Assembly (NCBI GenBank): GCA_012517355.1
Contig: JAAYVD010000154.1
Span: 1-64,000 of the forward strand
Length of the DNA: 64,000 bases
Reading direction: 5' to 3'
Origin: Candidatus Rifleibacteriota bacterium
GTDB lineage: Bacteria; Muiribacteriota; Ozemobacteria; Ozemobacterales; Ozemobacteraceae
Position 1 is the first letter of the stretch. Each line of letters begins with the position of its first letter. The position numbers and the translations under genes are program-made. Of this stretch, positions 3,565 through 7,710 are shown in pieces. Under the pieces are notes generated by a model. It worked only from the letters and a program-made list of their open reading frames with translations. It did no database searches and was not told the origin of the DNA.

Positions 3565-4458
3565 TCAGAGCCCCCCCTGGATATCGACCCCGAAGGGAAT
3601 CTTCGCCTGCACGGTCTGCGTGAAGGAGGCGTTGGCATACCGGGATTCGGGATGGGGGAAGACCAGGTTCAGGGAATACACCTTGGCCACATCGGGACCG
3701 GTGGTGGTCGAGGCGTTCCCGAAATCGATCTCGATCCGGCCGATACCGGTCAGGGAAATGTCGAAAGTGGGATTTCCCAGCCCGAACTGTTGCGGGGTGC
3801 CCGACCAGTCGCCAACGGTGTTGTTCGCGGGAAACCCCGCGATGGTACTCGTGAAGACCGTCGAGTTGATGTCGTTCGTTCCGAACAGGCGCAGTTCCCC
3901 GGTCCGGCGGCGGCCGGCCGTGGCCGGGGGTCCGGGGATGGCGATCAGGGCGTGCGGCATGTTCAGGCCTTTCCGGCCGGAATCGGCCAGGGCGGGCTTG
4001 GTGACGGTGAAAAACAGCAGATTCTTTGGGTTGGTGAGGGTGGAAAAATCGACGACGGTCCCGACGGGGACGGTGTACAGGGGCGTGGGGACGATGCTCA
4101 CCTGGGTGGCGAGACCGGGGTTCACCGCGGTCAGGTTCGCCGTCTGCTCCAACCGTTCCTTGAACTGCAGCAGGAAGTGCTGAGCCGCCTTCTGCTGGGT
4201 AAACCGCCAGGTGCCTGAGGAATACATGCTCGAGCCCATCCGGTAGAAGGCGAAAAGGCCACCGAAGAACAGCGTGAACACCCCCATGGCGATGAGCGTC
4301 TCGACCAGGGTGAAGGTCTTCCGGGTGGAGGGGATGGTCGCCACCGCCCTCCCATGGGGCAGGCGACTGGAACTGCCCAGGCCTCCGGATCCGGGGATGT
4401 GTGAACCGGCGGTCATCTGGGATCTTTCGTCCACTCCGTTCGCTGCCTGGAAGACCAA
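3565..4458 (-). CDS. Prepilin-like minor pseudopilin (PilW/GspJ type), first gene of the operon
   Basis: 297 residues from a TTG at 4458 with AAGGAG (4467-4472) eight bases upstream; an ATG at 4416 with a weaker site is the alternative. The prepilin helix is FTLVETLIAMGVFTLFFGGL at about residues 49-68 with Glu at +5. The residue before the predicted cleavage site is Thr (RKT/FTLVE) rather than the usual Gly, and the leader is unusually long (33-48 residues). The large beta-rich C-terminal domain fits GspJ/PilW. The sigma-54 promoter at 4511-4526 lies 52 bases upstream of the TTG, which fits a short leader and supports the early start. Confidence 0.75.
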   Translation of the reverse strand: MVFQAANGVDERSQMTAGSHIPGSGGLGSSSRLPHGRAVATIPSTRKTFTLVETLIAMGVFTLFFGGLFAFYRMGSSMYSSGTWRFTQQKAAQHFLLQFKERLEQTANLTAVNPGLATQVSIVPTPLYTVPVGTVVDFSTLTNPKNLLFFTVTKPALADSGRKGLNMPHALIAIPGPPATAGRRRTGELRLFGTNDINSTVFTSTIAGFPANNTVGDWSGTPQQFGLGNPTFDISLTGIGRIEIDFGNASTTTGPDVAKVYSLNLVFPHPESRYANASFTQTVQAKIPFGVDIQGGL

Positions 4459-4510
4459 GGCGCACTCTCCTTCAGGCCAGGGGTACGTTCAGCTATCCTG
4501 GGGTTTTTCG

Positions 4511-4526
4511 AGCAATCCAGGTGCCA
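4511..4526 (-). promoter_or_regulatory. Sigma-54 (-24/-12) promoter of the minor pilin operon
   Basis: On the minus strand the sequence reads TGGCACC TGGA TTGCT, with GG and GC separated by exactly ten bases, matching the RpoN consensus TGGCAC-N5-TTGCW. The predicted start point is near 4500, which leaves about 40 bases before the TTG start of the first pilin gene and includes its AAGGAG site. Sigma-54 control of pilin genes is known in Pseudomonas and Myxococcus. No enhancer-binding protein gene is in the window. Confidence 0.75.
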
Positions 4527-4991
4527 TCCCCGATTCCATCTATACTGGCCCTTTGACTATAGATTAGCATACTATCCCACGACTTCGGAGGCCGGAATGC
4601 GTGAAAATTCCTTGCGTTTTGCCTCAATAACCTGCAGGGAATTTTTACAGGAGATGCCGGGAATCTGATTTTTTCACCCCCTGGTCCAGCGTCACGGTTG
4701 TCTTGTGGGGGAAATTCCCGCGGGATCCCCTTGCCGGCCGAATGAGCGCAGGATGACCAACCCCCAACCTCGACAGTGACGGGGATAGGGCGCTCTCCGA
4801 TTCCTGGTTCGTAGGCCACAAGGTTGTTCAGGCTGTTCAACGGAATGCCCCCCTTCCCTCGGAAGCAACCCCTTGCTCTGGACAACGACGTGGGCCAATC
4901 CTGTCGCCATTATTGCCCCGAGGGTACCCCTCACTTTTTTCGAGCCCCCTCCTTCCTAAGAAACTGCCCGGGACTTCATAAATGAGTTCAT
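4527..4991. other. Intergenic region between divergent sigma-54 units
   Basis: About 465 bases without a convincing gene. Short open frames here lack Shine-Dalgarno sites and the codon bias of the neighbours. The stretch around 4550-4640 is more A/T-rich than its surroundings. I see no tRNA, terminator or repeat. It probably holds regulatory DNA for one or both promoters. Confidence 0.4.
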
Positions 4992-5013
4992 GGTGCGCCC
5001 AATCTGACGCACC
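4992..5013. promoter_or_regulatory. Inverted repeat, possible enhancer-binding protein site
   Basis: GGTGCG and its exact complement CGCACC are separated by ten bases. The centre lies about 108 bases upstream of the start point predicted from the sigma-54 promoter at 5084-5099, the usual distance for an upstream activating sequence bound by an NtrC-family activator. The function is inferred from symmetry and spacing only. Confidence 0.45.
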
Positions 5014-5083
5014 TCTGTGACATCTCTTTCGCCGACTTGGCCCATTTCGCGTAAAACCAGCTCTGCCAGAGGCTTTCAGCAGA

Positions 5084-5099
5084 TGGCACGGTTGATGCT
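5084..5099 (+). promoter_or_regulatory. Sigma-54 (-24/-12) promoter of the VIT-vWA gene
   Basis: TGGCACG GTTG ATGCT: GG (5085-5086) and GC (5097-5098) are ten bases apart, a very good RpoN match. The predicted start point is about 5110, just upstream of a GAGGAGG ribosome binding site and an ATG at 5128. It is the second sigma-54 promoter in 600 bases, and it points away from the pilin promoter. Confidence 0.8.
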
Positions 5100-5127
5100 A
5101 TGAATTGAGACGCCCGAGGAGGAAATC

Positions 5128-7710
5128 ATGCACCGCGGAACCACCACCCAGCCCACCAGCATCCAAGAACTCATCATCATCCGGTATTTCATCATTCGGA
5201 CCAGTGGGCAAGGCTCCGTCGGCATGGCGTCCTCCCGGAAAACGATTGAGGGAGGGAGTCCCATGAACAGTCTGATGCGCATTTTCGTCCTGGCTTGCCT
5301 TTTCGCGACGGCCGCCATTCCGGCGGACGCCTTTTACCTGGTGACCCAGCGCGGTCAGCTGCCGCTCATGGAACAGCGGATCAAGGTGACGATCGACAAC
5401 CAGCTGGCGGTCACCACCATCGAGCAGACCTTCAACAACCCCAACGACACCACCGAGGAGGCGACCTACCGGTTCCCACTCGGGGAAAAGGCGTCGGTCC
5501 AGGAGTTCGGCCTGACCGGCACCGACGGGGTGCGGCGCGCCGGAGCCATCGAGGAAAAGAGCGAAGCCCAGGCGATCTACCAGAACGCGCAGAGCATGGG
5601 GGCCCAGCCAGCCATCGCCCAGCAGGCCGACCCCAACAGCTTCGAGACCAAGATCGGCACCGTGGCGGCGCGTTCCCGCAGCAAGGTCGACCTGACCTAC
5701 ACCGAGATCCTGCCCTACCACATGGGCAAGATCCAGTATTCCATTCCCCTCAACATCAAGGCCATCCAGGGCCACAACATGGACGTGGTAGCCGTGACCA
5801 TCGATCTGAAGGACCAGAAGGAGATCGTGGCGGTCGACTCGCCGACCCACAAGATCGCCGTGTCCAAGGTCGATGCCCACCACTGGCAGATCACCTTCGA
5901 GCGGTCCACCTGGCTGCCCGACACCGATTTCCAGCTCAACTACGAGGTGAAGGCCCAGAAGATCGGGTTCAACTTCCTGTCGACGCAGCCCGACCCCAAC
6001 GAGCCCGGGTATTTCATGCTGATGCTCGCCCCCCAGGAGGTCGTCGACGCCCGTGACATCGTCGCCCGCGACATCGTCTTCGTGATGGACGTGTCAGGCA
6101 GCATGAGCGGGTACAAGATCGACCAGACCAAGCAGGCGTTCAACTTCTTCGTCGACCAGCTCAACTCGGACGACCGGTTCGGGGTCATCGCCTTCTCCGA
6201 TTCCCTGCAGCCGTGGCGGGAAACCCTGGTGCAGGCCACCCGGGAGAACCGGCAGGCGGCCCGGGAGTTCATCGGGGCCCTGGGCGCCGGCGGCGGCACC
6301 AACATCCATGACTCGCTGGCGGCCGCGCGGCACCTGTTCCCCGAGGGAAAGACCACCAAGGCCATCGTCTTTCTGACCGACGGCGAGCCCACCGCCGGCA
6401 TCACCGACGCCAATGTCATCGCGCGCAGCATGCGCGAGGGGAATACCAAAAACATCCGCACCTTCGTGTTCGGCGTGGGCGAGAACCTCGACGCCCGCCT
6501 GCTCGACCAGCTGGCCCTGGAGAACTCCGGCCAGGCCGTCTACGTCCACGAGAACGAGCACCTGCAGGCCAAGCTGACCAGCTTCTACGAGACGATCAGC
6601 AAACCCCTGCTCGTCGACCTGGGCCTCGACTTCGGCAGCATCGAGATCAGCGAGATGTATCCGCCCCGGCTGCCCAACGTCTACAAGGGCTCGCAGGTGA
6701 TGGTGGTGGGCCGCTACAAGACCGGGGGCCAGACCACCCTGAAGGTGCGCGGCGTCCTGAACGGCTCGGCCCAGGAATACCCGCTGCCCGTCAGCTTCGC
6801 GAAGAACAGCCCCGACAACCGCATCGTGGCCCGGACCTGGGGCAAGATGAAGGCCGACTCCCTGATCGGCGAGATGCGGGCCTACGGCGACGACCCGGCC
6901 AGGAAGGCGGAAGTGATCCGGCTCAGCAAGACCTTCCAATTCACCACCCCCTACACCTCGTTTGTGGCCGTCTGCCCCGAGCAGGTGGCCCCGGCCCGCA
7001 ACGCCTCGCTGGACCCCTACCGCACCGCGCGCGGCGGCCGCCTGCCCAGCCAGCCGCAACCGGTGGCCGCGATGAACGTGCCGATGCCCCCGTCGAACGT
7101 GGTCATGCCCCCTTCGCCCGCCCCGGTGCAGAATATCACCGTGACCCGCACCACCGAGGCCAAGAAGGTCAGCCTGTGGGGCGCCTACAGCTTCCTGCCC
7201 GTCGCCCCCCTGCTGGTGCCCAACTTCCGCAAGGCCCGCGAGCAGGCGCGTGAGAAAGCCTGCTACGCCAACATGCGCGTCATCCTGGGCGCGGTCGAGA
7301 TGTACAACATGGACCACCAGGAGATGCTGCACGCCATCGACGAGCGCCACATCGCCGCCCTCCAGGGCAGCCAGTATCTGAAGTCCCAGATCACCCATCC
7401 CGAGACCGGGTGCGCCTACTTCACCGCGGGCGACCTGGCCAGCGACGGGATGATCGTCTGCGCCATCCACGGCGGGGTCGAGGACGGGGTCGAGTACGGC
7501 GGGGTCCCCGGGTCGCCCCGTTCCAACTTTTCGGTGACCGTCGTCGACAACACCTCGTGGGAAACCCGGATGTGGAACAAGTGCCTGCCGCTGATCGAGC
7601 TGGCCATCAACATTCCGCTGGTGCTGATCGGCCTGTGGTTCACCTGGGTGGTCTGCACCGCCCCGTTCCGCTGGCTGTTCAAGGCGGCCGCGGCGGACAG
7701 CGGAAAGTAG
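5128..7710 (+). CDS. VIT and von Willebrand factor A domain protein with pilin-like C-terminal part
   Basis: 860 residues from ATG 5128 (strong GAGGAGG site) or 815 from ATG 5263 (GGAGGGAG site). Only the second start puts a normal signal peptide (MNSLMRIFVLACLFATAA) at the N-terminus, so it is probably the main product. Domains, numbered from 5263: VIT (about 25-150); vWA (about 268-450) with the MIDAS motif DVSGS near 276 and TDGEPT near 371; a Pro-rich linker (about 590-630); then FLPVAPLLVPNFRKAREQ (644-661) and ACYANMRVILGAVEMYN, which resemble the helix and start of the globular domain of pseudopilin-like proteins; a transmembrane helix at about 777-798. Likely a cell-envelope, metal-dependent binding protein. 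Shared sigma-54 control links it to the pilin operon. Confidence 0.85.
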   Translation: MHRGTTTQPTSIQELIIIRYFIIRTSGQGSVGMASSRKTIEGGSPMNSLMRIFVLACLFATAAIPADAFYLVTQRGQLPLMEQRIKVTIDNQLAVTTIEQTFNNPNDTTEEATYRFPLGEKASVQEFGLTGTDGVRRAGAIEEKSEAQAIYQNAQSMGAQPAIAQQADPNSFETKIGTVAARSRSKVDLTYTEILPYHMGKIQYSIPLNIKAIQGHNMDVVAVTIDLKDQKEIVAVDSPTHKIAVSKVDAHHWQITFERSTWLPDTDFQLNYEVKAQKIGFNFLSTQPDPNEPGYFMLMLAPQEVVDARDIVARDIVFVMDVSGSMSGYKIDQTKQAFNFFVDQLNSDDRFGVIAFSDSLQPWRETLVQATRENRQAAREFIGALGAGGGTNIHDSLAAARHLFPEGKTTKAIVFLTDGEPTAGITDANVIARSMREGNTKNIRTFVFGVGENLDARLLDQLALENSGQAVYVHENEHLQAKLTSFYETISKPLLVDLGLDFGSIEISEMYPPRLPNVYKGSQVMVVGRYKTGGQTTLKVRGVLNGSAQEYPLPVSFAKNSPDNRIVARTWGKMKADSLIGEMRAYGDDPARKAEVIRLSKTFQFTTPYTSFVAVCPEQVAPARNASLDPYRTARGGRLPSQPQPVAAMNVPMPPSNVVMPPSPAPVQNITVTRTTEAKKVSLWGAYSFLPVAPLLVPNFRKAREQAREKACYANMRVILGAVEMYNMDHQEMLHAIDERHIAALQGSQYLKSQITHPETGCAYFTAGDLASDGMIVCAIHGGVEDGVEYGGVPGSPRSNFSVTVVDNTSWETRMWNKCLPLIELAINIPLVLIGLWFTWVVCTAPFRWLFKAAAADSGK

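Follow-up and report, generated by a model that had tools for sequence, protein, structure and literature searches.

A sigma-54-type promoter with a conserved upstream dyad at a VIT-vWA gene of Ozemobacteraceae, and its probable place in a stress regulon

Since Riflebacteria are known mostly through metagenome assemblies, their regulation has to be deduced from sequence. In the 64 kb stretch of DNA analysed here (the window), taken from a genome of 7.1 Mb in the family Ozemobacteraceae, a gene encoding a VIT-vWA protein is preceded by a predicted sigma-54 promoter and an inverted repeat, and a pilin operon with a promoter of the same type runs in the opposite direction. Which genes does the repeat connect: the two neighbours, or the vWA gene and others elsewhere in the genome? 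The first-pass annotation had proposed that the neighbours form one regulon. The comparisons described below make a stress response the probable setting of the vWA gene, apart from the neighbouring pilus genes.

The window's own genome is designated G000; G, C and L numbers denote genomes, contigs of a genome and individual loci, respectively. The family comparison set comprised 24 genomes, 15 with an orthologue of the vWA gene and nine without one. Upstream regions of vWA orthologues were read in 14 genomes, with the window's own counted in.

Table 1. Positions of the features discussed (window coordinates unless a contig is named)
Feature	Position	Strand	Remarks
Divergent pilin operon, sigma-54-type promoter TGGCACCTGGATTGCT	4511–4526	-	neighbour, judged outside the regulon
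Candidate second, distal enhancer, TGGGCCAATCCTGTCGCC	4891–4908		matrix score 11.9, second-best in the window
Inverted repeat GGTGCG-N10-CGCACC	4992–5013		exact; contains the core dyad
Core dyad, putative main enhancer (UAS), TGCGCCCAATCTGACGCA	4994–5011		90 bp to the promoter, start to start
Third, weak enhancer candidate, TGTGACATCTCTTTCGCC	5016–5033		matrix score 11.3, third-best in the window
VIT-vWA gene, sigma-54 (-24/-12) promoter TGGCACGGTTGATGCT	5084–5099	+	predicted start ~5110
VIT-vWA protein gene	5263–7710	+	frame open from 5128; start at 5263 agrees with orthologue L077
Candidate one-component bEBP (L187)	G000:C13:106650–108083	-	GAFTGA, AAA+ domain, Fis HTH (HTH_8)

The promoter, the repeat and the gene downstream

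The promoter of the vWA gene, TGGCACG-GTTG-ATGCT, has one mismatch to TGGCACGNNNNTTGCW. Its anchors are intact and correctly spaced, with GG at 5085–5086 and GC at 5097–5098, 12 bp apart, which is the form used here to define sigma-54 promoters (TGGCACG-N4-TTGCW plus GG and GC anchors 12 bp apart). The earlier identification of a sigma-54 promoter at this place is therefore borne out, and the coordinates and distances given with it are right. Only two places in the window have at most one mismatch to TGGCAYGNNNNTTGCW, namely this promoter and that of the pilin operon, where 0.78 are expected; two or more occur in 19 of 100 shuffled sequences, and taken alone the number is not significant. What deserves notice is their placement: the two matches share one intergenic region, divergent and 573 bp apart, in agreement with the earlier description of two such promoters less than 600 bases from each other. 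A motif scan for RpoN, restricted to the individual loci, gave no match; RpoN is likely to be encoded in G000, since this genome carries 19 strong sigma-54 activator domains.

The inverted repeat was also found as first described, exact and centred about 108 bp upstream of the predicted start. By itself it is no rarer than chance, as it occurs in exact form at two places in the genome and the composition estimate is two to three. With one mismatch, it occurs at 92 places per strand versus 19 for a reversed control, which is a poor control for a palindrome. Given only two exact places and a control of this kind, the exact repeat was dropped as a genome-wide signature. The repeat is significant because it is conserved in relatives and because its generalised form recurs at other sigma-54 promoters: it is a variant of a more general dyad, TGCGNCA-N4-TGNCGCA. 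Dyads with up to two mismatches number three in the window, versus 3.6 expected, and in the GC-rich genome G000 the dyad alone is modestly enriched (18 versus 10 in the control at one mismatch). When a matrix was built from the relatives' 14 sites with the window's own site held out, the core dyad ranked first in the 64 kb, with a score of 15.8, and the sites ranked second and third proved to lie in the same intergenic region.

The encoded protein, predicted to be located at the cell surface, consists of a signal-peptide-like start, VIT and vWA domains, a pilin-like segment and a C-terminal hydrophobic helix; its structure prediction, made with three sequences, gave a mean pLDDT of 30.5 and was unusable. 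The pilin-like segment (PNFRKAREQAREKACYANMR...) corresponds to window positions 7200–7490, approximately residues 692–787 of the frame, and is found at many other places in the family genomes, some of them within open frames of about 1,800–1,900 residues. The start at 5263 is preferred because the matching leader of orthologue L003 has stops in every frame, and a leader peptide from 5128 was rejected on the same ground. An RNA element in the leader was rejected as well, with a folding z-score of -1.01 and no Rfam match in 4400–5400. In the untranslated leaders of most vWA orthologues (L002–L014), an AT-rich stretch (GAAATTATTATTATT or GAACTTATGAT) occurs some tens of bases past the predicted start, at 5165–5200 in the window.

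Conservation and helical phasing of the dyad

Because the promoter count and the exact repeat hardly go beyond chance on their own, the upstream regions of the orthologues were examined. All 14 genomes have the dyad, mismatched at no more than 3 of its 12 positions, upstream of the vWA gene, and in 11 of the 14 regions it is followed by a sigma-54 site with at most two mismatches; no recognisable site was found upstream of the other three orthologues (L005 and L008, from one genus, and L012). Dyad and promoter lie 90 bp apart, start to start, in G004 and the three genomes of the window's genus, and 69–71 bp apart in four genomes of genus g4. When each genus in turn was left out of the matrix, the observed score was reached in 13 of the 14 regions by no more than 6 of 1000 dinucleotide shuffles; the test failed at L007, where 82 of 1000 shuffles scored as high. 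The previously listed site was the best-scoring one in 13 of the 14 regions. Two orthologues from the window's genus (L002 and L003) carry a distal dyad about 112 bp ahead of the main one, which, together with the second-ranked site in the window, makes a paired enhancer at the vWA promoter likely.

A search of the 24 family genomes gave 22 exact dyads, versus 3 for the reversed control. A sigma-54 site with a proximal half-site 33–63 bp upstream was found 28 times (reversed control, 2), and one with the half-site 64–94 bp upstream 19 times (control, 0); neither gapped pattern has a match in G000. The 48 dyad–promoter pairs that were read divide into 24 with a full dyad (distal half with at most 3 of 6 mismatches) and 24 with a half-site only. 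Phasing is confined to the full-dyad pairs, with R = 0.76 at a period of 10.5–10.75 bp, a value reached by none of 5000 random sets, versus R = 0.27 for the half-site-only pairs. With one value per gene family (n = 13, families grouped by hand), which is the sole way in which this test handles the kinship of orthologues, R is 0.68, and 120 of 5000 random sets reach it. The grouped list omits one further dyad, at 89 bp, of a promoter that has two (L123), and the distances at clpB (117 and 126 bp) and most of those at pspA (161–170 bp) lie beyond the range that the phasing test covered. The dyad is on a fixed helical face relative to the promoter, with a period of about 10.5 bp. The phased dyads lie 58–102 bp upstream, a range typical of bEBP enhancers, and their distances therefore fit an activator-binding enhancer. 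UAS sites of such enhancers are described in a review (PMC7175178).

Genes that carry the dyad

Looking for the repeat at other RpoN promoters had been proposed as a check on the first-pass annotation; its generalised form lies at four of 53 sigma-54-like sites in G000 and at many in relatives. These 53 places, which match the consensus with at most one mismatch, compare with 37 for the reversed pattern, and many of them are therefore chance occurrences. The four have a dyad scoring at least 12 at 40–160 bp upstream, whereas the downstream control gave none; 300 permuted symmetric matrices reached a mean of 0.09 of the 53 sites, and only one of the 300 reached four. The genes concerned are the vWA gene (15.8), a membrane protein gene on contig C71 (15.4), clpB (13.1) and a gene for a pilin-vWA fusion (12.8).

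In the family as a whole, a dyad with a sigma-54 site precedes clpB in G017 and G005 (126 bp) and G000 (117 bp), the PspA genes of G003, G004 and G014, PspA-like genes of G000 and G001, and the prepilin-vWA fusion genes of G000, G017, G021 and G005. The same pair is found upstream of a membrane protein family without a Pfam match, an MBL-fold gene and other genes. G002 and G007 add dyads at their PspA-type genes, in G007 with no recognisable sigma-54 site. Seven of the 26 PF04012 loci checked have a dyad score of at least 12, including all four strong PspA loci and three PspA-like ones. In G000, the promoter sequences at clpB and at the PspA-like gene depart from the sigma-54 consensus (TGGCACGATTCTTGGT, AGGTACGTTTGTTGCG).

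Several further observations concern these and other sigma-54 sites. In the fusion proteins (L180:1-1476(-) on G000:C172, L128, L101 and L155), a prepilin N-terminus is joined to a vWA domain, with N_methyl and VWA_2 matches. The hsp20 gene of G000 (L031, C2:36077–36092) has a perfect sigma-54 site and no dyad; at hsp20 of G021 (L124), both dyad arms are perfect and the spacer is 3 instead of 4. Good sigma-54 sites also precede genes on contigs C13 (L032) and C117 (L168) of G000 whose products are predicted to be small secreted proteins with many GQ repeats.

As the partner genes encode a disaggregase, PspA, and surface and membrane proteins, the dyad apparently marks an envelope/protein-stress regulon, and the vWA gene is most likely a member of it. 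The promoter and dyad sequences, their conservation, the phasing and the gene list are direct readings; from them we infer bEBP binding, activation and a stress signal, and we hold the following course of events to be likely. A bEBP with a Fis-type helix-turn-helix would bind the core dyad, probably aided by the distal site at 4891–4908 and perhaps by that at 5016–5033. With the dyad on a fixed face of the helix, the bound protein would contact sigma-54 RNA polymerase held closed at the promoter, and this contact would open the promoter of the vWA gene. The gene clpB is usually placed under heat-shock sigma factors, and the dyad with its target list would put it under sigma-54 in this lineage.

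Candidate activator, alternative readings and known systems

The best candidate for the activator of the dyad promoters is the one-component bEBP L187, with about an even chance of being the right one. It has approximately 165 unannotated N-terminal residues and no match to a receiver domain. Reciprocal best hits were compared, over 72 bEBP loci (L273 and L283, with no readable frame, left out), between three genomes with the vWA gene (G006, G009 and G012) and three without it (G011, G015 and G018). Five activators, L183, L184, L187, L191 and L192, have such hits in all of the first three, and L187 alone among them is absent from all of the second three. The L187-type N-terminal part is present in 14 of 15 genomes with a vWA orthologue versus 3 of 9 without one (Fisher p 0.0037, kinship ignored); within this count, G002 contributes a contig-end fragment only, and the part is missing in G021 (75% complete). 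It had been predicted beforehand for G003 and is absent there (genome 83% complete), though G003 has PspA dyads. Locating the activator through dyads at its own gene failed, since none was found near the candidate bEBP genes. The L187 gene follows genes for a zinc-ribbon protein and an acetyltransferase-like protein (G000:C13:106650–110215; also L293 and L298), a neighbourhood conserved in part in G012 and G006.

The same mechanism might instead work through L183, L184, L191 or L192, a possibility that is somewhat doubtful and still deserves attention: all four share the reciprocal best hits in G006, G009 and G012, and two dyad-carrying genomes, G003 and G021, are missing the L187-type N-terminus. 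What favours L187 over them is its singular absence from the three tested genomes without a vWA orthologue and the distribution of its N-terminus (14/15 versus 3/9). It is unlikely that the dyad is bound by a factor other than a bEBP, be it repressor or activator, acting beside sigma-54 and not through it. Such a factor would suit the dyads at L005, L008, L012 and the PspA gene of G007, where no sigma-54 site is recognisable. Against it, dyads and sigma-54 sites are strongly paired across the family (28 versus 2 and 19 versus 0), and the phased upstream spacing is typical of bEBP enhancers.

Quite improbable is the reading with which the locus was first interpreted, one regulon of the pilin operon and the vWA gene, in which a PilR-like activator bound between them would fire both promoters. 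Both are good sigma-54 sites in a single intergenic region, the vWA protein contains a pilin-like segment, and another dyad-bearing gene encodes a prepilin-vWA fusion. However, at 40–160 bp upstream of the pilin promoter there is no dyad (best score -4.1), and the nearest good ones are those on the vWA side, at least 365 bp away. Among the pilin relatives with readable upstream DNA (19 loci, less L312, which is too short, and L303, the window's own), a dyad within 600 bp was found in 0 of 17 (best score 7.5), and three of the 17 have a sigma-54-like site with at most two mismatches. Of the 14 genomes compared by tblastn, only the window's own has a pilin gene upstream of the vWA gene; the commonest upstream neighbour is a DnaQ-like exonuclease gene, within 1.5 kb in nine of the 14 and farther upstream in G001. 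The missing pilin-side dyad and the non-conserved adjacency make a shared regulon unlikely, and the proposal of one is not supported. In this one genome, the pilin promoter may use the vWA-side enhancers by looping over at least 365 bp. A pilin link of another kind is real: the gene for the prepilin-vWA fusion carries the dyad. The inverted repeat ATCTATA-N13-TATAGAT (window 4537–4563) adjoins the pilin promoter and could be the operon's own control site. That the repeat is a chance palindrome beside a real sigma-54 promoter is very improbable, for although the exact 12-base form and the near-matches in the window occur at chance frequency, the dyad is kept in 14 of 14 genomes, passes the leave-one-genus-out test in most regions, ranks first when held out, is phased and recurs at functionally related genes.

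Returning to activation by a bEBP at the dyad, a wider proposal is advanced tentatively, as one not far short of probable: Ozemobacteraceae would possess an undescribed sigma-54 stress regulon, in which ClpB, PspA and vWA surface proteins with pilin-derived segments are co-induced under a one-component activator whose N-terminal sensor domain is unknown. If true, a phage-shock-like response is extended here to protein repair and cell-surface proteins. The dyad and its targets offer a handle on when Riflebacteria produce their many vWA and pilin-like surface proteins, and a possible context for the unknown N-terminal domain of a conserved activator. Among the titles and abstract openings covered, mostly outside subscription journals, no account of the dyad or of a sigma-54 regulon in Riflebacteria was found.

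Several known systems resemble parts of this arrangement. The VIT and vWA arrangement is shared with TIGR03788 (marine proteobacterial sortase target), from which the regulated protein differs in its score (280.1 bits, cut-off 551.65) and in carrying a pilin-like segment. Response regulators of the PilR/NtrC type have a Fis-type HTH, sigma-54 dependence and upstream inverted repeats, as is the case here, whereas our candidate activator has no receiver domain match and the pilin promoter no dyad. In Desulfovibrio vulgaris, inverted-repeat operators of one-component bEBPs were predicted by comparative genomics of the sigma-54 regulome, with phage-shock and envelope-stress genes among the targets; phage shock has its own one-component regulator there, DVU2989 (PMC4641369). 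The operators and stress targets are alike and the lineage differs; the terms ClpB, TGCG and TGTCGC are absent from the main text of that report. A further parallel is provided by the Psp system of E. coli and others, in which sigma-54 and a bEBP, PspF, likewise act at a pspA-type gene; PspF is under negative control by PspA (PMC4641369). A pspA-type gene under the same enhancer is found here as well (seven of 26 PF04012 loci). The candidate bEBP, in contrast to PspF, has an extra N-terminal domain and falls below the cut-off of the PspF model (271.6 versus 443.55 bits), and one dyad is common here to clpB, VIT-vWA, pilin-vWA and membrane protein genes. The promoter reads as a genuine enhancer-dependent one of the ordinary kind, and it is the set of partner genes that appears unusual.
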